Below, in pieces: positions 5,696 through 22,156 of a DNA stretch of 22,156 nt. Position numbers and translations under genes: made by a program. Every line of letters starts with the position of its first letter. Within the stretch, counting starts at the first letter, position 1. The notes below the pieces were generated by a model, which had not been told where the DNA came from, searched no databases, and saw only the letters and a program-made list of their open reading frames with translations. This DNA comes from a virus. The stretch lies in IMG/VR virus record IMGVR_UViG_3300047678_000011, positions 1 through 22,156 of that record. The stretch is one strand, 5' to 3'.

Positions 5696-7761
5696 GCCGG
5701 CACCTTGGCGGTGATCGTCAATGCAGCTGTGCCGCCACCGGCCCCAGCGGTAGAGACCGTCCGCATATTGGCATCGCCCACAACAAACGTCGGCGTCAGC
5801 GGCTTCAGGCGGTCCCCGACAACGTAGATCTGATTTGGGTCTGCCAGAGTGGTCCGGTCCGTCGTGATCGTGACCAGTCCGCCTTCCGTCTTGGCGTCAA
5901 TAGCCGGGGAGTCAACTAGCGCGCCCTCCATCATCTGCCGGAGCGGAACACTTGCCACCGTGATGTGGATGCTCTGTATGACGATGAAGTTCTGACCCAG
6001 CGTGTTGGTCATCGTCCCACCCTGATTCATGTAGGGCGTGACGAAGATCACCGTCGCATCCGGTAGCACTTCAGTCTCGCACCAGAGAAACTCGCGGCTG
6101 TCGGTGACGGTGTGGTGGCCGTATGAGCCAGCGGGGTAGCGACCATCAGGGGATACGGTGTCGCTGTTGGAATAGGTCGCCCCGCCTGAGTTACCGCTGT
6201 AGGCATACATGGCGGTCTGCGCTGGCTGCGCCCCGAGCGTGGACTCGGCAAAGTCGGCCAGCTTCGGGATAAAGGCCCACATCCCCACCCGGATACGCTT
6301 TCCCCTGAGAGCCAGAACCGAGGGACTAGCCACGGTGTCGTAAGTCTCTGTCAGTCGAAACTCGACGTTATTATTGGTCTGCGCCGTTGCCGACTTCAGC
6401 AGAATGGCATTCTGCCCACGGCCAATCATCGCGGGGCCGTACTTGACCGAGCCGCCGGAGGTATAAGTACCTGCGAAGGTCGAGCCCTGCAGGTCGAAAT
6501 TGTTGGCGTCGATGACCGTAATAGTCCAATGGCCGTTGGCGTTAGTGACGCCACCCACGCCGCGCACTTCCATTCGCATAGCTGTGAGCAAGCCGTGAGA
6601 CGCCACGGTCAGGCGAATGGCGCCAGAGCCGTTATTTGCCGCCCCGGTCACGGTCCAGCGCGTGGCGGCACTGATCTTGGTGATCGTGGTATTGGTGGGG
6701 ACAATGCGATTCCAGCCCCGCAGCCAGCAGTCAAACTGAGGATTCGGGAAGTAGTTGTACGCCGGGCCATGCACCTGCCCATTGTCGAGAGGCCATTGGC
6801 CGCGACCCTCCTGATAAAGGACCAGTGCCTTGCAGTTCTCGGTGATGTCCATGAGGGAGTGCATATCGCCGGCATCGCCGACAACGGTGATGACGCTGGT
6901 CTGGTCTAGCCTGTCAAGACGAACGGCCCGATACCCTGAGGTCAGCACCTGTTTCTGACCGACATGGATCGTCAGCTTGATGGCCTTGCACTCCTTCGTG
7001 CCGCCGATAATCAGGTAAGGGGTTGAGCGCGGAACCAGATACGACTGCTCAAGATAGATATTCCCGTCAACGTCCCGGCAGTTGTCTATGGTCGATGACA
7101 GCCCATCAGAACGAGATCCCTCAGCGAGGACGGTCAACGTCACAGAATCGCTGTTGGTCAGCGTGAAATCGCGGATGTTCTCCGTGACCTTGATGTCTAC
7201 CGTGCAGGCGTTGAGGAAGTCACCGATAAACCCAGTGGCGCAGTAATCGCCACGGAACTGCTTGATGTCACCAGACCACCCCTGAAACGAGCCGCCGGTC
7301 TCCAGTCCAAAGCACCGCACCCGCTCGACACTCACGCGCCCGCACTTGTAGTTCTCCTGCGGGGTCTGGCCGGGCCGGCCCAAACGCAGGCCAATAGCAG
7401 CGATCCTGTCGTCGGCAGTTGCCGCCGAGGGATTGCCAATGAAAAGGTCTTTGACCTCGATGCCGTCACGGTTAGAGGCATCAAGAACGGCTTTCGTAAC
7501 GTCTGAAAAAGAGGGTTTCAGGACAAGGCGGCTGCCGCTGGCATACGCATAGCCGGGACCGTGAAACACCGTGGGCGCGGATACCTGCCGCTCAACCAAA
7601 AGTGTCCCAGGCTTGCTCTTGGCGATGAGGTTCTGAGCCGCGCAGAGGTTAAAGACGGTCTCCAGACCATCGGCTGAGACTGCTGACCCGTCAAACTTCA
7701 GCCTGGGTTCGTCCTCCAGGTAGAACTCGCCGCGATGCCGAGCCTGTTTCTGTACCTGCAC
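5692..7761 (-). CDS. Tailspike, beta-helix with C-terminal carbohydrate-binding-like modules
   Basis: A 689-residue protein. GTG at 7761 is chosen because GGAG lies seven bases upstream and one base separates it from the preceding TGA; an ATG at 7794 would overlap the previous gene and add unlike sequence. Residues about 25-325 show repeated short strands with regularly spaced Val, Ile, Asp and Gly (for example VSVERVRCFG, LTNSDSVTLTVLAE), fitting a right-handed beta-helix, as in P22 gp9 (about 667 residues). NYFPNPQFDCWLRGW at about 336-350 opens a jelly-roll-like domain. A VASHGL...GVGG...ANNFDL insertion at about 386-424 is a module shared by many phage proteins. It probably binds and may cut host surface polysaccharide; no catalytic residues can be fixed by eye. 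Confidence 0.8.
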   Translation of the reverse strand: MQVQKQARHRGEFYLEDEPRLKFDGSAVSADGLETVFNLCAAQNLIAKSKPGTLLVERQVSAPTVFHGPGYAYASGSRLVLKPSFSDVTKAVLDASNRDGIEVKDLFIGNPSAATADDRIAAIGLRLGRPGQTPQENYKCGRVSVERVRCFGLETGGSFQGWSGDIKQFRGDYCATGFIGDFLNACTVDIKVTENIRDFTLTNSDSVTLTVLAEGSRSDGLSSTIDNCRDVDGNIYLEQSYLVPRSTPYLIIGGTKECKAIKLTIHVGQKQVLTSGYRAVRLDRLDQTSVITVVGDAGDMHSLMDITENCKALVLYQEGRGQWPLDNGQVHGPAYNYFPNPQFDCWLRGWNRIVPTNTTITKISAATRWTVTGAANNGSGAIRLTVASHGLLTAMRMEVRGVGGVTNANGHWTITVIDANNFDLQGSTFAGTYTSGGSVKYGPAMIGRGQNAILLKSATAQTNNNVEFRLTETYDTVASPSVLALRGKRIRVGMWAFIPKLADFAESTLGAQPAQTAMYAYSGNSGGATYSNSDTVSPDGRYPAGSYGHHTVTDSREFLWCETEVLPDATVIFVTPYMNQGGTMTNTLGQNFIVIQSIHITVASVPLRQMMEGALVDSPAIDAKTEGGLVTITTDRTTLADPNQIYVVGDRLKPLTPTFVVGDANMRTVSTAGAGGGTAALTITAKVPA

Positions 7762-10519: not shown

Positions 10520-11744
10520 TCAGGTAGTCCTTAGCCGTCTTCTTCCCGCCGTATTCGGGCGGCAGAGGACGAATGTCTGAGGACGAGATGTCCTGATAAG
10601 CCGTCCTGCCAGCATTTATAGACCGCAGCAGAGACTGGCGTCGATTCCTCAGGATCTCCAGATTGGCCGACTTGCGGTTAGTCAGATAGCCACCGACAGA
10701 CCGGAGGGCATCGCCTTCCTTGTCTGACAGCGATCCCTTGAGGTTCTGAGCGTTCGCACTGAGGGTTTGCAGGAACTGGTCGTTAAAGATGCCTCGCAAC
10801 ACCTGAAGGTCGGGGTCCAGTAGCGCGGTCCAGTCGGACACCGCATTAGACTCCGGGCCTGCCTCAACCTTCGCAATTGCTGAATCCAACGAGGCAAGTG
10901 CCTGCTGCTGCGTGTCAACCATCGAGGCCAGCAGGTTTAGGTTCTTGACTTTATCGACTTTCGCCGTCTTGGCGCCCTCTACCGTCGCCTCGCCCGTGGC
11001 CTTAGCCTGGACTGCATCCGGAGCGTTCTGGCCCATGACCGCGCCCATGCCGCCAGCGAAGCCAGTCGCACCCGCCGCCGCAGCCTGACGGCTAATACCA
11101 ACGGGGCTATCAGGGATCGCGCCCATGAACTGCGGGGTGCCGCCTGCCTGCTTGGGCGGCAGCATCCACTGCCCGGTGGAGTAGTCCTGCACGGGGGCGC
11201 CGTAAGCCGCAGGCGCGGCCCGCTTCATGTTCAGATACTGCGACTGCTGATCCGGTGACAACTGGCTGTAGTGGTCCCACTCCTGAATCGCGGAGGGAAT
11301 GCCCGCCATCGCCTTGGATCGCAGCGACTGCGCGAACAGCTCGGGGTTCTGCGTGAAGAACTGCGCTTCCGCGATGTCGGCCTGTGACTGGTAAGGCGAT
11401 GCCTGCGCCTTGGCAAGCTCAGCCTGATACAGGGCGTTATCCAGCGGGTCTTTGCCGCTCCGGTACTTCTCCGCCGCCGTACTTGCCCCGTAGGCCAAGG
11501 CAAACGGCAGGCCAAAGCCCCCCGTGGCAATCGTGGACAGGACCGGGATGGCGATGTCTTGCAGGGCTTGCAGGAAGCCGTACTTCGGTCGCGACAACGC
11601 GCCAGCAGGCGGTGGCGGTTGCTGCCCCCGCTGGTCGAGGACCGGCATACCCATCGGCGGGCCTTGCTGCCCCATCAACTCCCGAGGCGGGCCCATCATC
11701 GGTTGCCCCATCAATTCGCGGGGCGGTCCCATGTACTGGTTCAT
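10509..11744 (-). CDS. Probable DNA ejection protein, middle (P22 gp20 position)
   Basis: A 411-residue protein starting at ATG in an ATGA overlap. Residues 5-25 contain MGPPRELMG twice, at 5-13 and 17-25, in a Met/Pro/Gln-rich, disordered-looking N-terminus that continues to about 50. Residues 57-88 form a hydrophobic stretch (around IAIPVLSTIATGGFGLPFAL) that could enter a membrane. A second Ala/Gly-rich segment lies near 219-238. The C-terminal 170 residues are helical with repeated Leu/Ala/Gln heptads, and the end is basic. P22 gp20 has 471 residues. Size, order and the membrane-active segment fit an ejection protein crossing the host envelope. This is a strong inference, but it rests on no diagnostic motif. 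Confidence 0.72.
   Translation of the reverse strand: MNQYMGPPRELMGQPMMGPPRELMGQQGPPMGMPVLDQRGQQPPPPAGALSRPKYGFLQALQDIAIPVLSTIATGGFGLPFALAYGASTAAEKYRSGKDPLDNALYQAELAKAQASPYQSQADIAEAQFFTQNPELFAQSLRSKAMAGIPSAIQEWDHYSQLSPDQQSQYLNMKRAAPAAYGAPVQDYSTGQWMLPPKQAGGTPQFMGAIPDSPVGISRQAAAAGATGFAGGMGAVMGQNAPDAVQAKATGEATVEGAKTAKVDKVKNLNLLASMVDTQQQALASLDSAIAKVEAGPESNAVSDWTALLDPDLQVLRGIFNDQFLQTLSANAQNLKGSLSDKEGDALRSVGGYLTNRKSANLEILRNRRQSLLRSINAGRTAYQDISSSDIRPLPPEYGGKKTAKDYLNAN
11670..11732 (-). repeat. Two in-frame copies of a 27-base unit encoding MGPPRELMG
   Basis: The copies lie at 11706-11732 and 11670-11696, 36 bases apart, inside the N-terminus of the 411-residue protein. They differ at four bases, all in third codon positions (GGA/GGC, CCC/CCT, CGC/CGG, GAA/GAG), so the nine-residue peptide is identical. 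The pattern suggests the peptide itself is maintained. Confidence 0.9.
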
Positions 11745-12631
11745 TTGCCCCCGAACCCAATATTGGCGCTGACGTTGCTCCCCGAAGTCGTCCCGCCCCA
11801 GTTATTGGCCTGCGTGATCCCCGAAGCCATCTGGAGCAGACGCCACGGCTCATCCACTAACTGCTTCTGGAGGTTCTGGTAGTAATCTCCCCACCCGGAA
11901 AGGTTCTGCGCGCCGGTCTGGCCGAAGTTGTACTGATCGGCCGTGTAACCGAGTCCGGCCTGACCCAAGCCGGCGAGGTTCTGTGCCGCAAACTGCCGCC
12001 CAGAAATGTCGGCCATCTGCCCCTGCTGGTTGTAGTCAGCCGACTGACCGGCGAACCCGAGGCCCTGGTTGTACGCGTCGAAGCGGATCTGGGAACTGAT
12101 GTCTGCCGCCCGGTCGCCATAACCTCTCTGAGCGATCCCCTCGGCTATCCCGCGACGCGATGAGCCGGTATTCCCCGAACCCACCGCCGATGAGGCAATC
12201 CCCGGCATGGTCTGCTCGGTGAGTTGCCGGTAGGGGTCTCTGAGGGACGCCTGCACCATGCCGTCAACCGTGGGGTTGTTCGCCACCTGATTGACGAGGT
12301 TCATGTCGATGCCGTTGGCAAAGGGGTTCTGATACCCGACGCCGTTAGCCACCGTGTTCCCGTAGTAGTTCGCCGCCTGCCCGAGACCGGGGGTTAGCTG
12401 CGCGCCAGCCTGCCCAAACGTGTTAGCGACCTGCCCAGAAAGGTCATAGAGGCTCTGCGCGCCACCGTAAGCCTGAAGCTGCTCGGGAGTGATCTGCGCG
12501 GCGTTAGACCCCTGCCCGAAGAGGTCTTTAACCGCCGGGTAAATGGTGTTCTTGAGAATATTACCCTGCGGCGCCCACGGTTCAGTCGTGGTCTTGCTCT
12601 TGCTCGCGCCAATGCCAAAACTAAATCCCAT
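11741..12631 (-). CDS. Probable DNA ejection protein, small (P22 gp7 position)
   Basis: A 296-residue protein, rich in Gly, Gln, Asn, Ala and Tyr, lacking charged clusters. The N-terminus has WAPQGNILKNTIYPAVKDLF. A central segment, TGSSRRGIAEGIAQRGYGDR, is followed by a helical region DISSQIRFDAYNQGLGF. The C-terminal third is Gly/Ser/Asn-rich. The SSRRG segment recurs in internal virion proteins of podoviruses as I know them. P22 gp7 has 229 residues and comes first of three ejection proteins, as here. AGAGGG lies five bases upstream of the ATG at 12631. The stop overlaps the next start by ATGA. Such proteins are packaged in the head and released into the cell with the DNA; for this protein that is inference from position and composition. 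Confidence 0.7.
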   Translation of the reverse strand: MGFSFGIGASKSKTTTEPWAPQGNILKNTIYPAVKDLFGQGSNAAQITPEQLQAYGGAQSLYDLSGQVANTFGQAGAQLTPGLGQAANYYGNTVANGVGYQNPFANGIDMNLVNQVANNPTVDGMVQASLRDPYRQLTEQTMPGIASSAVGSGNTGSSRRGIAEGIAQRGYGDRAADISSQIRFDAYNQGLGFAGQSADYNQQGQMADISGRQFAAQNLAGLGQAGLGYTADQYNFGQTGAQNLSGWGDYYQNLQKQLVDEPWRLLQMASGITQANNWGGTTSGSNVSANIGFGGK

Positions 12632-12661
12632 GATGCCCTCTCAAATACCACTAAAGCACGG

Positions 12662-12677
12662 CTGTTTGAACCGGATT
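12662..12677 (-). promoter_or_regulatory. 16-base repeated intergenic element, copy 2 (upstream of ejection genes)
   Basis: AATCCGGTTCAAACAG overlaps the final bases of the TAA stop of the 88-residue gene and ends 30 bases before the ATG at 12631. It matches copy 1 at 15 of 16 positions. In the promoter reading, TTCAAA (12670-12665) would be the -35 and TATTTG (12647-12642) the -10, again at 17 bases; neither box is strong. The element heads the group of three ejection-type genes. Function is unknown; alternatives are a transcript-processing site or a protein-binding site. Confidence 0.5.
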
Positions 12678-12942
12678 ACTTCGCCACCCAGCCCGTATTC
12701 CCCGTGCCAGATTCCTTGACGTAGAGGCTCGTCCCCGCGCCACCATCAGTCCGGCGGAAGAGCGAACCCACCGGGGCCGTCACCACGCCTTCTGGCGTCC
12801 CATCCCCGAAAGAGATGCCGAGATCCGACAGCAGCACCAGCAGGGCTTGTTCAATCTGCACGAACTCGCCGTTTACCCACCGCGTCAGGTCGGGGAGCGT
12901 CTTTGGGCTTGCCGAACTGGAGCGGTAGGGGAAGGTCTTCAC
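12676..12942 (-). CDS. Short tail protein with a spike-like C-terminal module
   Basis: An 88-residue protein starting at GTG inside a GTGA overlap with the nozzle gene. The N-terminal half forms a helix (LTRWVNGEFVQIEQALLVLL) of the kind found at the base of fibres. The C-terminal half contains GTPEGVVTAPVGSLFRRTDG and then SLYVKESGTGNTGW. This beta-rich ending occurs at the ends of many phage spike and fibre proteins. Here it stands alone as a small protein. It occupies the slot where P22 encodes the tail needle (gp26, 233 residues) and gp14, so it could be a reduced tip component. Its stop opens the second long gap in the window. Confidence 0.75.
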   Translation of the reverse strand: MKTFPYRSSSASPKTLPDLTRWVNGEFVQIEQALLVLLSDLGISFGDGTPEGVVTAPVGSLFRRTDGGAGTSLYVKESGTGNTGWVAK

Positions 12943-14573
12943 CGGCCACCGTCCTGAACGTCGATCTCAACGCCGGTCAGTTCCCAGCTCACGCTCGTCG
13001 CCGCGCCCTCCCACTCACCGATTCGGTAACCGACGTACTTTCCCGTCAGCCGGGTGTCGATCTTGTAAGCCTCGGCGTCGTTGAGGTCGAAAGCCTGGGG
13101 GTCGTCCCACAGGTATTCACCATTGGGCGTCTGCGCGGCACCAATCTGGACCTGCACCACGCCGGACCCGCGCATCTGGGGATACAGACCACGGATGAAC
13201 AGGGACCGAGCAGCGGGAGACCCGAGATTCTCAAGATCCAGTCCGGTCCTCTCGACATAAGCGTAATACGGGGCTGTTGCTGTCCGCGTGGCGTTGACGT
13301 ACTGCGTGCCGTACTCGAGCAGCGCCCCGGTGGTGAATCCGGTGAATGAATTGTCAAAGATCGGCTCACCCTCAGCCGTCACCATGAACAACCGCCTGCG
13401 CGGGTCAGAGGCCCCGAGAGAATCAGCCGTCCACGGTGCGGAATCTATGGGGATGGCAGCTTCTGGACTGCTGAACCGGAGGAGGCCTGTGGTCGGTTGC
13501 GGGCTCTCGGCGATACACGCCACCCACGGCAGATCCCTGAAGTTCCAGGTGTTGGTGATCCAGTTCCAGATGCACGCCCGGTTCGGACTCGACGCCCCAT
13601 TCCTGGGGTAGTAAATCAGGATCTCATTCGCTGCCAGATTGGCAGAAACCCTGACCTTGGACAGGTCGCTGATCTCCGAGAATAGCTGGCGCTCGATCCT
13701 GCCGGCGGCGATGCGGGTATTGCTGTTGCCGTCGTGAACAAAGACCGCTTCATCAGCGACAACAAAGTGCTGATTCTCAAACTGCACCACGCAGTCCTGA
13801 TTCAGGCACCCCCACGGCCAGAGCCTGCGGGTGTCGAAGATGTACGCCCCGCCCACAAACCGCGCCGCGTAGGTCGCCCGCTGCGCGTAGATGATGAAGT
13901 CGTTCCCCAGCGGCTCGCCGTTAACGAGGATGCCGTCCGAGGCGCTGACGGTGTTCGTTCCCGCCAGATTCGTGGGGTCGGCGTAGTCCCACGACATCGG
14001 GAAGGCGTTTGGTTCCGCCTCGTCAGACCAGTAGAACGAGTACGGGGCGTCAGTGACGCCGATTGCCATCAGGAAGGAGCCAAAGCCACGAATGACCTTG
14101 ACGCTCCCACCGGGAGAGGTCGCCGCACCCCAGCCGGGGATTTGCCGAAAGACCGACCCGTCTTTACTGGAGGTCGCTGAGTTCCACGAATACAGCGGGT
14201 AGTCGGTGCCGTTGTTCAGGACGCAGTAGTCCCCGAATGTCGTGGACTGCCCGATGCGGCTGGTGGTCAACGTGGTGGCGGCGCCAGCCTGATTCTGGAG
14301 AGCCGCCGTGAGCATGATCCCGCTTTCGAGTACCTGCACGGTCTCGGTCATCAGCACGGCAATCCGCTGAATACCACCACTCAGCCACGGCTGCATCCAG
14401 GTCGGGAAGTCGTCGGCAATGGTATTGACCAGCCGGTAACCGCCGGACTTCTTGGCCTTGCCGTCCCTGAATGAAACCGCCTCAGCAACCGAAAAAGCCT
14501 GAGAAGGCAGGTCGTGCGGTGCCATGTCGGATACCATCCCCGCCGTGCCCAACTTGTCGAGTTTCAGGATCAC
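12939..14573 (-). CDS. Probable tail nozzle / DNA stabilisation protein, P22 gp10-like
   Basis: A 544-residue, beta-rich protein with repeated aromatic strands, for example SGGIQRIAVLMTETVQVLES, SFLMAIGVTDAPYSFYWSD and EILIYYPRNG, consistent with a propeller-type nozzle subunit. Segments such as NGTDYPLYSWNS and WSDEAEPNAFPMSWDYADP resemble phage nozzle proteins, and a C-terminal domain of about 170 residues follows. Start GTG at 14573 directly follows the TAA of the collar gene. P22 gp10 has 472 residues and lies after gp4, the same relative place. The C-terminal part (ARSLFIRGLYPQMRGSGVVQ) looks like an appended beta-sandwich. Function is inferred from order, size and strand pattern; I see no diagnostic motif. 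Confidence 0.68.
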   Translation of the reverse strand: MILKLDKLGTAGMVSDMAPHDLPSQAFSVAEAVSFRDGKAKKSGGYRLVNTIADDFPTWMQPWLSGGIQRIAVLMTETVQVLESGIMLTAALQNQAGAATTLTTSRIGQSTTFGDYCVLNNGTDYPLYSWNSATSSKDGSVFRQIPGWGAATSPGGSVKVIRGFGSFLMAIGVTDAPYSFYWSDEAEPNAFPMSWDYADPTNLAGTNTVSASDGILVNGEPLGNDFIIYAQRATYAARFVGGAYIFDTRRLWPWGCLNQDCVVQFENQHFVVADEAVFVHDGNSNTRIAAGRIERQLFSEISDLSKVRVSANLAANEILIYYPRNGASSPNRACIWNWITNTWNFRDLPWVACIAESPQPTTGLLRFSSPEAAIPIDSAPWTADSLGASDPRRRLFMVTAEGEPIFDNSFTGFTTGALLEYGTQYVNATRTATAPYYAYVERTGLDLENLGSPAARSLFIRGLYPQMRGSGVVQVQIGAAQTPNGEYLWDDPQAFDLNDAEAYKIDTRLTGKYVGYRIGEWEGAATSVSWELTGVEIDVQDGGR

Positions 14574-15311
14574 TTACCCGGCGCAGAAGCAGATGTAAGC
14601 CAGGATGTAGTGAACAGGAAGGACGCCGTAGACGCTGTGCGTGTGCGAGGCTTCAGTGCCGAGAGCGTGGTTGTGCGACCCACCGCCGCCGACTTCCTCG
14701 ATATACGGCGCGCTGCCCGTAGCAAATGCGGCAGTTGCGATATTGTCCCGAAGAATGGCCGTAGTGCCGCCGGGACTGTTTGCCCCCGTGTAGATGCGGT
14801 GCCCGTGGGCAGGGATCTGGGCGAGGGTCAGAGTCACCGCGTCAATCGTGTGCGTGTGACCCCCGGCATTCGACACTGAAATACTCTCGGCCACCGCCCG
14901 CGTCCCCGAGAAGCCCGTGGGCTGACCCAAGACAAAGCGGCTGCGAAGATCGGGAGTGACCACCGCGTTGTACGTCCCGCCGTCACACAGCCGCCAGCCG
15001 GTGGGAATAGCCCCAGAATTGTGGTTCCACATCAGGATCGAGCCCTTGGGGACCACAGTGGCCGCTGCCGCCCCGCCGATGGTCGTGTAACCGTGGGGGT
15101 CCAGGGTGTTCTTGACCGCCGTCCGCGCCGTCACAATGTCCGCAGGCAGGTTGTTGATCGCCGTGTGCGTCAACGTCACCGCGCCCGTGACAGCGGGGAA
15201 GGAAGCCTTTAACGCCCCCTTGAGACTCCTGATCGAGTCGTCAAAGGTGCTCAGGTACGCCGTCCCTGGAGGGGATAGGGGGTCTAGTTGGCCAATGTAA
15301 CTCTCAGCCAT
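14574..15311 (-). CDS. Tail-collar-domain protein (probable tail fibre or needle-like tip)
   Basis: A 245-residue protein. The N-terminal 85 residues contain a helical segment and a short beta-rich region with DPHGYTTIGGAAA. From residue 88 follows a classical collar-like domain: PKGSILMW, IPTGWRLCDGG, VTPDLRSRFVLGQ, LTLAQIPAHGH, and the hydrophobic end LPVHYILAYICF. Four His-x-His pairs occur at residues 152-154, 169-171, 213-215 and 223-225. In trimeric phage fibres, such pairs can bind metal along the axis; that is family knowledge, and here it is inference. The ATG overlaps the adaptor stop by 8 bases. The gene lies between adaptor and nozzle, an unusual place for a fibre-type domain. A role at the tail tip, as plug or needle, or in receptor contact, is possible. 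Confidence 0.82.
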   Translation of the reverse strand: MAESYIGQLDPLSPPGTAYLSTFDDSIRSLKGALKASFPAVTGAVTLTHTAINNLPADIVTARTAVKNTLDPHGYTTIGGAAAATVVPKGSILMWNHNSGAIPTGWRLCDGGTYNAVVTPDLRSRFVLGQPTGFSGTRAVAESISVSNAGGHTHTIDAVTLTLAQIPAHGHRIYTGANSPGGTTAILRDNIATAAFATGSAPYIEEVGGGGSHNHALGTEASHTHSVYGVLPVHYILAYICFCAG

Positions 15312-15993
15312 ACACCGTCCTCTGCACCAGACTCGACCCCGACAATTCCGCCCGGTTGCCGCGTTCCTGCAAGAGCTGGAGTTCCGCAGAAAACCGCTCG
15401 TCCATCTGTTTGGCGTCGTCGGGCAGTCTCAGGAATAACGCCGCCTCCGACAGTGCCCCGTACAGGAACATATCGGGGCAGGTGGCAAACACCCGGTTCG
15501 TCCCGGCGTCCGAAAGGAAGGCGGGCGTGGCCCAGTACGTCATTCGCACGAAGTACGTCCCCGTGATGGGGGTAATCAACAGCGTGTTGTTGTCGCGGGC
15601 GAAATACTGGGGGACGCCACCGCACTGGACCGTCGAAAGAATGCCGTTCATGGTCTCGACCGAGGTCCGGCGGATCTGCGGTTGTCGGCCACCGTAAGAC
15701 AGGTCAGGCGGGGGCGTCTCGGTCTCAAAGGCGCAATACGACCAGATGTCCTTGATCTCCAGCAGGTCGCTTGGGAGCATCGGCTGGTCGTCGCAGCAGC
15801 CGATCAGGAAGTCCTTGGGGATGACCGCGCCGTTGTAATCGGCGGTCGTGACTTCCATCTCAGGAATACGCAAGGCCCGGTAAGCCCGGCGTTCAGCCGC
15901 TCGGATGAACCCAGCCGCTCGGGCGTCGGTTACCTTGCTGTGGTTGGCCCAGTCCCTGACCGCCGCGACTAGATCGGTGTAGGTGTCCAGCAC
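15304..15993 (-). CDS. Head-tail adaptor, P22 gp4-like family
   Basis: A 229-residue protein that would form the ring below the portal and help close the filled head. The N-terminal MLDTYTDLVAAVRDWANHSK, with DARAAGFIRAAERRAYRALR following, is typical of the phage adaptor family: a helical bundle starting with a tyrosine-threonine loop and a helix carrying E-R-R. The central part is beta-rich, containing DLLEIKDIWS and NNTLLITPITGTYFVRMTYW. The C-terminal half has helices with PDMFLYGALSEAALFL and a region rich in Glu/Leu. The start is GTG at 15993, one base after the preceding TGA. P22 gp4 is shorter (166 residues), but many related adaptors are about 200-230. Position after the coat gene and before the nozzle agrees. 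Confidence 0.82.
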   Translation of the reverse strand: MLDTYTDLVAAVRDWANHSKVTDARAAGFIRAAERRAYRALRIPEMEVTTADYNGAVIPKDFLIGCCDDQPMLPSDLLEIKDIWSYCAFETETPPPDLSYGGRQPQIRRTSVETMNGILSTVQCGGVPQYFARDNNTLLITPITGTYFVRMTYWATPAFLSDAGTNRVFATCPDMFLYGALSEAALFLRLPDDAKQMDERFSAELQLLQERGNRAELSGSSLVQRTVYG

Positions 15994-15994
15994 G

Positions 15995-16411
15995 TCAAGA
16001 CACCGAGCGCACGGAGTTCGGCTTCAGGTTGAAGCGCTTCTCCGTGGTCTTCAGCTTCGGTGTTTCGAGTTCGATAATGCGTTCCAGCCGCCGCAGTTCG
16101 GCCTGCGTGGGCGCCTGCCAGTCGTTGCGACCAAGGCAGTTGATGGGGTCAATGCCGTACTTCACGGCCAGTGCCCGCATGGTGGTGAGTGGAATGCGCG
16201 CCACTGGGACGAAATCCGCTCCGCGTCGCTGCCCCAGGTACTGCTCTTTGTGTCGGCGGGCTTCAGCCGTCGCCACAGCCTCAGCGACGTTGGCGGTCTC
16301 GTTGATGTGCAGGACCACACCGCCGCTCTCTGGACGCTCCAGGTGGTAGCGGTTGGTGTCGAGAGTCACCGGGGGCAGTTGCCCACCCCCGGTGTTGTTC
16401 TCAGAGGCCAC
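15995..16411 (-). CDS. Unknown protein between capsid and adaptor
   Basis: A 138-residue protein whose GTG start abuts the capsid TAA with no intervening base (TAAGTG), so expression probably depends on termination of capsid translation. The N-terminus is flexible and Gly/Pro-rich with a TLDTNRYHLERPESGGVVLH segment. The middle is helical, and the C-terminal third (QAELRRLERIIELETPKL) looks like an amphipathic helix. No family is recognised. Its place between coat and gp4-like adaptor suggests a head-associated or head-completion protein; no motif proves it. The overlap of only one base on the far side (TGACGTG) supports it as part of one translational unit. Confidence 0.78.
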   Translation of the reverse strand: MASENNTGGGQLPPVTLDTNRYHLERPESGGVVLHINETANVAEAVATAEARRHKEQYLGQRRGADFVPVARIPLTTMRALAVKYGIDPINCLGRNDWQAPTQAELRRLERIIELETPKLKTTEKRFNLKPNSVRSVS

Positions 16412-17425
16412 TTAAGCGCCAGTCGCGCTCAGATTGTACAGACGACCCGAACACTCGCCGTTCAGATGAGCCAGCGTCAGCTCAGTGGACAGCAGGGTCC
16501 GACGGTTAAGACCGACCTTGGCGAGGTTCTCGCTCATGATCGGCTGCAAGGTGGGAACCCACCACGCATCCATCTGCAACAGGTACACGTCGTAGCTGGA
16601 CTTTGCAGCACCAGCGGCGGTCATGTACTTGTTGATCTGCACGGAGAGCGTGCCGAACGGATCGCGGTAGAGTTCCACGACGTTCACGATCTCAGTCCCA
16701 CCAGCCACATCGCGGCCACGCACACTGGTAAACGGCGTAGCGCCGCCCACCCGGTAAGCGAAGTCCGCAACGATCATCGAGTGAGCAGGACTGACCATCA
16801 GCACGTTCGGCTCGCCGCCCAGCGCATAGACGGTCTTGTGCAGCGTCAGGATGTCGGCTTCCGTGAGTGGCGCTGCCGTACCGGCGGAAAGCCGGGCGGT
16901 CGAGGCAATCAGGCCGTCCACCGAGGTCAACTGCCGGGCCGTGGTGGAGTTACCCGCCGTGCCAGCCTGACCCAGCAGGAAGGCGTACTCAATATCGCGC
17001 TTGAGCTCCAGGCCCTTCTTCATCACCTGATAGTCGTGGTCGTTCGCCCGACCGTAAACCTCGGTGTTGTCCACCGTGCTGGAGGTCTGCGCCGTTTCCG
17101 CGAAAATCTGCGTGTAGTTACTCTTGTCGGTCGTCAGACCGGCCACACCGGCACTCGGGCCAAGCGTCGCGGTCAGCGACCCCGTGCCAGGCGCGCCTGC
17201 GGTGACGGTGACGGCATCGACACCCTCAACCTGCCGATTGACAGCGGGAGCGCGCAGTGCGTCTTCCTGCCAATGCACGATCTTCTGGTGGCACGACTCA
17301 CTCCGAAACGCGGAGTAAAGCGGGGTGTCTTCCGGGCTGATGAGTCCGATAAGTTCGGACACATCCTCTTTCTGAATGACGGCCTGATAGCTCTGGAGAG
17401 CGCCAGTACCTGGTGAATATGGCAT
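16412..17425 (-). CDS. Major capsid protein, SU10/DUF5309-like
   Basis: The main shell protein, HK97 fold expected, 337 residues. The N-terminal region contains DVSELIGLISPEDTPLYSAF, followed by HWQEDALRAP, a strongly EG-D-containing loop and NYTQIFAETAQTSSTVDNTE. This order (I-x-x-I-S-P-x-D-T-P, then W-x-x-D-L, then N-Y-T-Q-I-F) is the pattern I associate with SU10-type capsid proteins. The segment GLELKRDIEYAFLLGQ matches the spine-helix position. The ATG at 17425 follows the scaffold stop by 19 bases and has AAGGA and GAGG just upstream. P22 coat (430 residues) is a different capsid family, so the P22-like order here is combined with a different coat lineage. A 477-residue antisense frame covers this gene and is taken as a shadow. 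Confidence 0.9.
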   Translation of the reverse strand: MPYSPGTGALQSYQAVIQKEDVSELIGLISPEDTPLYSAFRSESCHQKIVHWQEDALRAPAVNRQVEGVDAVTVTAGAPGTGSLTATLGPSAGVAGLTTDKSNYTQIFAETAQTSSTVDNTEVYGRANDHDYQVMKKGLELKRDIEYAFLLGQAGTAGNSTTARQLTSVDGLIASTARLSAGTAAPLTEADILTLHKTVYALGGEPNVLMVSPAHSMIVADFAYRVGGATPFTSVRGRDVAGGTEIVNVVELYRDPFGTLSVQINKYMTAAGAAKSSYDVYLLQMDAWWVPTLQPIMSENLAKVGLNRRTLLSTELTLAHLNGECSGRLYNLSATGA

Positions 17426-17444
17426 TGTCCTCGTTCCTTACTGG

Positions 17445-18455
17445 TTAACGAGGGCGGTCGGTGCCTCTTCGGCTGGCGAGGATCTGGGCTGCAAGCCGGG
17501 TCTGCTCCTGCTTGGAACCTGCGTTCCGCAACTGGCTGACCATACTGCTGTCCTTCTGCTTCGCCACCGTGGGTTGCGCCGTCGCCCCTCGGGTTGATTT
17601 GAGCGTCTTGCCCGGACTCGCCTGCACGACTTTCTTCGTGCCGACCTTCTGAGCCTCGTCAAACGCACGCGCCTTGCGAAGCGTGAGGAACGCCTGAGCG
17701 CTGTCCCACTGGGCAACCTCGTTCCGGTTCCAGCCGATTGAAGCGGCGTAGTCGATCAGGGAGTGGTACTCCCCCTCCGACCAGCCACCCGGATACACCC
17801 TGGTCAGAGTGGCGACAGCCTCGGTTACCCGTGCCGCCTTCTCTGCCTTGCGTACCCGCTCGACCTCACCCAGAAACCCCTGCTCTTGGGCCTGCTGGGC
17901 TTGATACCGCTGCTGCGCCTGCTGTAGGCGTAACTGCGACTTCTGGAAAGCTACGGGGTCTTTTTCGAGCAAGTCGGCCCAGTCGATACTCTGGAGTCTC
18001 TGAAGCTCCGCCACAGCGGCCTGCTTCAACGCCCCCAGGTGGTATGACAGGGTTTCCGTCGCCTGCTCGAAACTCTTCCTCTGCTCCGATAGTGCCTGCG
18101 TCTTCTGGGTGTAGTCAGCCTCCCGCAACAGACCTCGGGTCAGTTCCTTTACCGGTAGCTCGGTGCCATCCGGCAACCTGACCACCTGATCTTCACTGAG
18201 CGCCAATGGCCCCGATTCAGTTTCTTCGGTGTCTCCGGTTTGCTCTTGCGAGTCCGAATCCAACGCCTCAACGTCGTCGGCTGGGCTGTCTACCGCCTCG
18301 GTCAATACCCCTTCGGGCTCTGACTCCGGCCTTACGCTCGCCTCGTCCTGGGGTGATCGTTGCGATTCCCGGCGCTTGGCGAACAACTCCGCAGCTTGCT
18401 GCGTATTGAGACTCGACTTCCCGAGGGAGTGGTCGAGGGGGGTTGCGACTTCCAT
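17445..18455 (-). CDS. Capsid scaffolding protein
   Basis: This protein directs prohead assembly and then leaves or is degraded. The start is ATG at 18455, with AGGAG six bases upstream, the best ribosome site in the window. A longer frame reaching 18695 is rejected because its extra 80 residues are Arg/Thr/Pro-rich shadow sequence overlapping the previous gene. The product has 336 residues (P22 gp8 has 303). Residues 33-85 are acidic and low-complexity. Residues 91-125 hold a typical scaffold-family segment, VVRLPDGTELPVKELTRGLL followed by READYTQKTQ. Residues 120-215 are Gln/Glu/Lys-rich coiled coil, and residues 270-336 are basic, fitting coat binding by the C-terminus. It sits directly before the coat gene, as expected. 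Confidence 0.88.
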   Translation of the reverse strand: MEVATPLDHSLGKSSLNTQQAAELFAKRRESQRSPQDEASVRPESEPEGVLTEAVDSPADDVEALDSDSQEQTGDTEETESGPLALSEDQVVRLPDGTELPVKELTRGLLREADYTQKTQALSEQRKSFEQATETLSYHLGALKQAAVAELQRLQSIDWADLLEKDPVAFQKSQLRLQQAQQRYQAQQAQEQGFLGEVERVRKAEKAARVTEAVATLTRVYPGGWSEGEYHSLIDYAASIGWNRNEVAQWDSAQAFLTLRKARAFDEAQKVGTKKVVQASPGKTLKSTRGATAQPTVAKQKDSSMVSQLRNAGSKQEQTRLAAQILASRRGTDRPR

Positions 18456-18502
18456 GTCGCTCCTTCCATCCTTGGTGGGGCTAGTGTTCACCGCCCGAAA
18501 CA

Positions 18503-18518
18503 CTGTTTCAACCGGATT
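18503..18518 (-). promoter_or_regulatory. 16-base repeated intergenic element, copy 1 (upstream of scaffold)
   Basis: AATCCGGTTGAAACAG begins two bases after the TAA of the 105-residue gene and lies 47 bases before the scaffold start. A copy with one mismatch sits in the only other gap above 20 bases, at 12662-12677. Read as a sigma-70 promoter, TTGAAA (18511-18506) would be the -35 box and AACACT (18488-18483) the -10 at 17-base spacing; the -10 match is poor. A small hairpin GAAAC-AGT-GTTTC overlaps the 3' end. The repetition and placement are seen directly; promoter function is inference. Confidence 0.5.
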
Positions 18519-18519
18519 C

Positions 18520-18837
18520 TTACGCCTGCCGGTCCTTCTCCAGGTTGTACGCCGCGATGGCCCCGGCCATCTCCCTGACCATCTGCTGGAGGGAGTACGC
18601 CCGCATATACGCCTGCTCCCGAGCCGCCGTGTCTTCGGGGCGCGACTCCAGTATCTGGTCGGCGTAGGTCTGGAGTAGCTTCTGGTACGCCGCAATTGCC
18701 GCCGCCGAGTTCAGGAACTCGTAGGCATTAGCCGCGTCGTCCCCTAACTTTGAGAGTCTCTCGGCTGGACTCAGCTTCGGCGGACTGGTCTGGTAGGGTC
18801 GCCGCAGCCACTGCGGGTACAGGGTTTGCAAGTTCAT
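18520..18837 (-). CDS. Small helical protein of unknown function between portal and scaffold
   Basis: A 105-residue, mostly helical protein with an Ala/Tyr/Leu-rich core (for example NSAAAIAAYQKLLQTYADQI). The ATG at 18837 has AAGG 8 bases upstream. The N-terminal 36 codons overlap the end of the preceding gene. The non-overlapping remainder has no competing minus-strand frame and its amino-acid pattern is protein-like, so the gene is credible. The family is not recognised. Its stop is directly followed by a 64-base gap carrying the 16-base repeated element, so it is the last gene of the terminase-portal group. A head-completion or assembly role is possible from context alone. Confidence 0.72.
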   Translation of the reverse strand: MNLQTLYPQWLRRPYQTSPPKLSPAERLSKLGDDAANAYEFLNSAAAIAAYQKLLQTYADQILESRPEDTAAREQAYMRAYSLQQMVREMAGAIAAYNLEKDRQA

Positions 18838-21047: not shown

Positions 21048-22156
21048 TTAGAGTCTCCACTTCGGGGCCAGCGGCTGGCCTTGATTGAACGTCGGCGGGG
21101 GCACAAGCACCCCGAATTTCTGAATGGTCTGGTGGCCGTAACGCACAGCCGCCATCACGTCGTCATCGACCTTGACGAGCTTGCCGTCCTTGCGGTGGTA
21201 CTTGCGCAGCTCGTCGAAGAACTCGGGGCAGGTGCTGAACACCTTGAACCGGCCCGTCCTCATGCGTTCGTACATCGCCATCAGGCCGGGTTCCACGAAC
21301 CTTGAACCGTCAGGATTCTCAAAGTCAGCGGTGTTCCTCACCCCAGCGGCTTCATACAACGCCCTCACGGTCTGTCCTGATCCCTTCTCCCGGCTGTCAG
21401 CGTCGGGCGGGAACACACAGGGGGCGTGCGGCCACTGGCTATTCGCCACGGCAGCATGAGCGGCCACAATCTCGTCCTTCTGCCGGTACGTCCGCGTGAC
21501 GTAGATCACGTCCTGCTCGGCGTCCCAAGCGAGCCACGCAATGGCCGTGGGATGGTCAATGCCGATGTCGATGGCCCGAATGATCCGATACCAGGGGCGA
21601 GACTCCAAGGGGAACGGGTCGCACTTGATGCGGTCTTCATCGATTGGAAAGACCAGGCCTGTGCCGAAGTAGGGCTTGCCCTCGGAGCGCATGGCCCGTT
21701 CGTGCGGGGGGACGGAGGCGAGGATGCGCTCCTGTAGCTCGAGGGTCAGGTGGGGGCAGTCCCGCCAAGCGATGGGGCCGATGAGCGACTGGTGCGCGCC
21801 CCTCGACTCCATGAACTGCTGCACAAGGCCTGTCATGCCCATCTCGGGAGTCATGGTGTAGGTCAGCAGGCCCCCCTGTCCTCTACGCCCGTTCATCGTC
21901 CGCACGACCAACTGGCCCACGATGTCATCCGGCGGCTGCTCGTCAACGTGGATCAGGTCCACCACCGACCCGGCGAACGGTAGGGAGTCCGATCCCGTGC
22001 GGGCCTGTGAGTACGCCCTGAGACTGACCGTCGAGACCCCGCCCGACCTGTGCTTGACGGTGACATCTCGTGCCAGTCCGGGCACCTGGGAGCGGGTAAT
22101 GCCCCGCACCTCGTCGGGGTGTATCCAGCCCCCCGTAACCGTGCCGTCGTCCTTCA
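21048..22156 (-). CDS. Terminase large subunit, C-terminal part (5' end outside window)
   Basis: This is the DNA-packaging motor ATPase and nuclease that loads the genome into the prohead through the portal. The frame stays open to the window edge, so the N-terminus and Walker A are not visible; 368 residues are seen. Counting from the first visible residue, a Walker B-like segment VDLIHVDE lies at about 65-72 and a coupling motif TYTMTP at about 98-103. A nuclease-like block follows, with AIDIGIDHPTA near 195, an aspartate in PPDADSR near 251 and KVDDDVMAAVRYG near 328-340. The acidic residues fit the RNase H-like metal site of terminases. A GTG at 22109 is internal rather than a start, because clearly homologous coding lies upstream of it. 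The gene ends in TAA one base before the portal start. The family call is from motifs and position. Confidence 0.9.
   Translation of the reverse strand, partial: KDDGTVTGGWIHPDEVRGITRSQVPGLARDVTVKHRSGGVSTVSLRAYSQARTGSDSLPFAGSVVDLIHVDEQPPDDIVGQLVVRTMNGRRGQGGLLTYTMTPEMGMTGLVQQFMESRGAHQSLIGPIAWRDCPHLTLELQERILASVPPHERAMRSEGKPYFGTGLVFPIDEDRIKCDPFPLESRPWYRIIRAIDIGIDHPTAIAWLAWDAEQDVIYVTRTYRQKDEIVAAHAAVANSQWPHAPCVFPPDADSREKGSGQTVRALYEAAGVRNTADFENPDGSRFVEPGLMAMYERMRTGRFKVFSTCPEFFDELRKYHRKDGKLVKVDDDVMAAVRYGHQTIQKFGVLVPPPTFNQGQPLAPKWRL

Follow-up and report, generated by a model that had tools for sequence, protein, structure and literature searches.

Why do the only two non-coding gaps in this stretch of phage DNA open with the same short word, and what might that word do? 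The window analysed is the entire virus record IMGVR_UViG_3300047678_000011 (22,156 bases), a fragment of a phage genome in which the minus strand carries all genes. Their order runs terminase, portal, two small genes, scaffold, capsid, a 138-aa gene, a 229-aa gene, collar, a 544-aa virion protein, an 88-aa gene and DNA ejection, with further virion and tail proteins 3' of the ejection gene, and the window holds the virion genes of a podovirus whose distant relatives, at ca. 25–40% amino-acid identity, are of the LUZ24/PaP3 and phiEco32/7-11 types. The major capsid protein gene lies at 16412..17425 (minus strand; phrog_1328, E 7.9e-61) and the gene of the 544-aa protein, a packaged-DNA stabilisation or nozzle-like virion structural protein, at 12939..14573 (minus strand; phrog_3287, E 3.6e-82).

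Gap A comprises 64 nt of non-coding DNA (18456..18519, minus strand) between a small gene after the portal and the head scaffolding protein gene (17445..18455, minus strand; phrog_3927, E 7.7e-33), whilst gap B comprises 44 nt (12632..12675, minus strand) between the 88-aa gene (12676..12942, minus strand) and the DNA ejection protein gene (11741..12631, minus strand; phrog_4287, E 3.1e-13). The ORF upstream of gap A (18520..18837, minus strand) resembles by eye an 84-aa ORF in the same place in the related contig L127, and its real start is probably further downstream than annotated. After re-annotation no other non-coding gap in the 22-kb window reaches 20 nt, the remaining gene junctions being 19 nt or shorter once small minus-strand ORFs of 76 aa (18958-18728), 57 aa (8382-8209) and 54 aa (1016-852) are counted; the first-pass annotation had noted the two gaps as the only ones above 20 bases in a single block, which thus extends to the whole window. 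The 57-aa ORF, which occupies an apparent gap of 170 nt, encodes a polyglycine stretch with a RVTDDGSTRITDDDSERVTE tail.

Copy A of the element, AATCCGGTTGAAACAG, lies at 18503..18518 and copy B, AATCCGGTTCAAACAG, at 12662..12677, both on the minus strand and both in the direction of transcription. They are equal at 15 of 16 bases, as the first reading of the sequence had it, and its failure to see another copy by eye was borne out, the window holding only these two at up to three mismatches (two found, 0.11 expected) and no gap holding any further match even at five. That reading had also placed both copies immediately after a stop codon, which is right to within a base for copy A, beginning one base past the TAA at 18522-18520, and slightly off for copy B, which shares its first two bases with the end of the TAA at 12678-12676. 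The element therefore sits 0–1 nt from the upstream stop codon, and 47 nt (copy A) or 30 nt (copy B) from the downstream ATG; in gap A a Shine-Dalgarno sequence, GGAAGGAG, stands directly ahead of the scaffold ATG. The 16-mer is a contiguous, non-palindromic, oriented word, and identity drops abruptly past it, to 7 of the next 30 nt.

By itself a repeat of this size is ordinary, as 20 pairs of 16-mers in the window differ at no more than one base, but its placement in both gaps is not. With two gaps there is a single pair to compare, and the probability that they share such a word is ca. 1.6e-5 by composition; 60,000 Markov re-draws of the gaps gave no case at 15/16 and 19 at 14/16. Real sequence is more permissive than this: in a control of 257 loci, 2 of 11,307 pairs of stop-proximal 60-nt stretches had such a word in common, the window's pair being one of the two, and shifted controls of the same scan gave 2 of 11,311 and 3 of 10,892, a rate of ca. 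2e-4 per pair of 60-nt stretches, or an expectation of ca. 0.02–0.03 if ca. 136 pairs of gene ends are compared in such a window. Across 30 related loci, two gap pairs shared at least 14 of 16 bases against 1.25 expected in shuffles; such pairs are thus about as rare there as in shuffles, which makes the window an outlier. That two short intergenic stretches simply happened upon one 16-mer, spotted among many inspected features, is unlikely, the more so as both copies lie on one strand at nearly equal offset from the stop, yet we still give chance a probability of about one quarter, because some such cases will be luck across a large scan. Were it chance, the pair would show how readily a compact genome yields a word in two copies.

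The explanation that we favour, tentatively and short of an even bet, is that the 16-mer acts in cis as an oriented regulatory site of low copy number, most plausibly a promoter, or the chief part of one, recognised by a phage-specific factor. An oriented, conserved, low-copy element in gaps that head late genes is what is generally sought in a late promoter, and this is what the gaps hold. In its favour, the sole two gaps of at least 20 nt in 22 kb both begin with the element in the same orientation, the composition-based probability of this is very small, and identity ends sharply after the 16-mer. Against it stand the two copies only, the lack of the element in any relative found, the lack of a conserved -10, and the anchoring to the upstream stop and not to the downstream start, which is unusual for a promoter. 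If the reading holds, the copies would head two late transcription units, one running from scaffold through capsid to tail and the other from DNA ejection to tail fibre, and a phage-specific factor would boost the scaffold–capsid and ejection genes via the 16-mer. Its reader would be an alternative sigma factor, a single-subunit RNA polymerase or a late activator, not host sigma-70, and transcripts would start ca. 6–8 nt past the element, if it behaves like the single-element promoters of phiEco32, leaving short leaders before entry into the scaffold and ejection genes. Function, factor and start sites are all our inference.

The first-pass annotation had offered the element as a late promoter or activator site, with a TTSAAA as the -35 box and a weak -10 at 17 bases. 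The idea of a late regulatory signal stands, owing to the placement and to the internal late promoters of phage 7-11, whilst its sigma-70 form is not supported. TTSAAA (TTGAAA/TTCAAA) matches TTGACA at 5/6 positions in copy A and at 4/6 in copy B, but the best -10 candidates at 17 nt, AACACT and TATTTG, reach only 3/6 each and are unlike one another, and the -10 is usually the better-kept half in true sigma-70 promoters. No -10 is common to both gaps, no -35 and -10 hexamers near consensus and 16–18 nt apart are present, and a sigma-70 scan of the region returned nothing where 3.7 matches were expected by chance. An ordinary host sigma-70 promoter is the least probable of the explanations considered here, and a very improbable one.

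Internal late promoters of the kind proposed have precedent. Salmonella phage 7-11 has the same gene order as the window (terminase, portal, small gene, scaffold, capsid, and on to DNA ejection), its gene 18 is homologous to the gene of the 544-aa protein (27%), and between its structural genes it carries internal late promoters that its own sigma factor gp47 reads, among them those before genes 8, 12, 16 and 22, of which the gene 12 promoter showed activity only in vitro (PMC8948821). These promoters, like the element, are low-copy, phage-specific and placed in non-coding gaps. They differ in being bipartite, GTAAtg-(16)-aCTA, where the window's element is contiguous, and in preceding genes 8 (capsid), 12, 16 and 22, where the window's copies precede the scaffold and ejection genes. 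The gp36 promoters of phiEco32 (tAATGTAtA; PMC4331800, PMC8948821) resemble the window's element in being a single contiguous conserved sequence in few copies, here one of 9 nt that suffices, with starts 6–8 bp downstream (PMC8948821); they head middle and late units, and the motif is of other sequence than the window's. Neither a gp47-type GTAA...CTA at about that spacing nor a tAATGTAtA with up to one mismatch occurs in the window, so the element belongs to neither of those promoter families. Promoters of single-subunit phage RNA polymerases (T7-like) are likewise contiguous, oriented words of ca. 16–20 nt in few repeats, those of Xp10 being two long repeats (PMC4331800), but no polymerase is seen in the 22-kb fragment, nor in those of the portal-closest records that were tested. 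In PaP3, the annotation places a putative promoter directly ahead of the small gene that comes before the scaffold.

Promoters read by phage factors have been described as well conserved and low in copy number and have been sought by pairwise comparison of late intergenic regions, with alignment recovering those of phiEco32 and Xp10 (PMC4331800). The 7-11 promoters predicted in this way (PMC4331800) differ from those mapped (PMC8948821), so such predictions can fail. Usual motif finders miss the promoters that phage-encoded sigma factors and polymerases recognise, since these are few and sequence-specific. In a lineage of which no member has been studied, a clean pair would offer a handle on late-gene timing and on the factor that reads the late genes. 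A more specific form of the promoter proposal, which we put forward as speculative and on balance doubtful, would make AATCCGGTTSAAACAG a promoter class for an undescribed factor in an uncultured podovirus lineage related to LUZ24 and 7-11, with at least three late units split at the scaffold and ejection genes.

The copies are also direct repeats around a block of seven genes, from the scaffold to the 88-aa gene, and could represent a shared short boundary, either a relic of module exchange or a site for it; a role for short boundary sequences at module junctions has been put forward in phage mosaicism (PMC3029335). The 24 bases 5' of the copies, nearly all of them coding, agree at 13 of 24 positions, as might fit such a linker. 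Related phages, however, share the gene order yet lack such repeats, which argues that the block is not an insert, and base composition is unchanged at the block's borders, and we regard the linker as improbable. Since no factor was found and there are two copies only, it nevertheless retains, as does chance, a part of the probability.

Anchoring to the upstream stop would suit a signal acting on RNA just past the stop codon, in processing, 3'-end protection or control of re-initiation, and other stop-anchored repeats, some of them terminators, occur in a few relatives. A local hairpin is present in gap A alone (z -2.67), but gaps A and B fold differently, neither whole gap is more stable than its shuffles, no Rfam family matches, and neither gap has a terminator-like site on the coding strand, that is, a G+C-rich hairpin followed by a T run. 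The processing site that had been suggested as an alternative finds no shared hairpin in these gaps, and an RNA-level signal is, in our judgement, slightly less probable again than the linker. The start-associated sequences (SAS) of cluster K mycobacteriophages (PMC3203893) offer a comparison in form, both they and the element being short, non-palindromic, phage-group-specific repeats at gene junctions. SAS lie 3–7 bp before start codons and include the ribosome-binding site (PMC3203893), whereas the window's copies sit at the upstream stop with 30–47 nt between them and the start codon, and the Shine-Dalgarno sequence falls outside them. A shared coding reading of the copies (NPV-E/Q-T, +1 frame) was dropped, as nothing supports a frameshift.

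Relatives were sought among viral contigs (with portal, capsid, terminase and the 544-aa protein), bacterial genomes (with terminase) and phage records (by DNA), and none of these searches found one near enough for intergenic conservation. The best portal match shared ca. 36–38% identity. The best terminase match (L126, 3116-4567) shared ca. 55–56% and has neighbours that differ from the window's; on that contig the window's portal, scaffold and capsid proteins all go unrecognised, a sign of module exchange. The nearest syntenic relative is L127 (terminase 48%, portal 36%), in which ca. 20 nt separate the small gene from the next start codon, without the element. The scan of relatives suggested with the first-pass annotation thus gave none with the element in a comparable place, a result that also fits chance. 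Across 18 related records at up to three mismatches, the element was infrequent, matching 10 times against 7 for a reversed control. Exact 16-mers occur in 39 stretches of the viral contigs, in ca. 22 independent contexts (13 stretches for the reversed-pattern control), and 38 of the 39 fall inside ORFs of at least 100 aa, which again speaks for chance; the one exact copy outside such ORFs, in L028, lies between convergent genes and was set aside as probably fortuitous. On the sequences covered, in a search that may omit records very near the window, the element appears private to this phage or to unsampled kin.

Intergenic repeats of the relatives are mostly terminators, Shine-Dalgarno words or stop-spanning repeats. 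For example, a stop-spanning GAGGYCGCG-TAA-GCGGCCCRTAGG recurs at gene junctions in L226 (~338-365 and ~599-626) and L234 (~5796-5823), and ACAGGCCGTTGAGGCTTTGAGG stands right behind two stop codons in L207 (~1433-1460 and ~1705-1735). AATCCGGTACAAACAG recurs near the terminase on the minus strand in several terminase relatives, where we assume it to be coding.

Candidate factors were looked for in related records. No sigma-factor region 2 scored above cut-off in 31 related records; portal relatives gave weak Sigma70_r4_2 matches of ca. 131–133 aa, below cut-off, and at least one of these, directly upstream of the terminase, is probably the small terminase. In favour of a phage-specific factor, T7-like single-subunit RNA polymerases of ca. 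860–910 aa are encoded in four records whose capsid is akin to the window's (L309, L310, L311 and L312); against it, no such polymerase was seen in the tested records ranked nearest by portal. The intergenic repeats of the polymerase-bearing records are different ones, and the window's element is not among them. A polymerase-bearing relative, L316 (G016), carries an intergenic repeat of its own, TCGAMCAAATACCTGCCAA, in two nearly identical copies at 11908-11923 and 18380-18395 on the minus strand, one of which stands upstream of its T7-like RNA polymerase gene, and a word similar to TCGAMCAAATACCTGCCAA lies in an intergenic gap of G033 (L320, within 21286-21547); this repeat is possibly a promoter of that clade.
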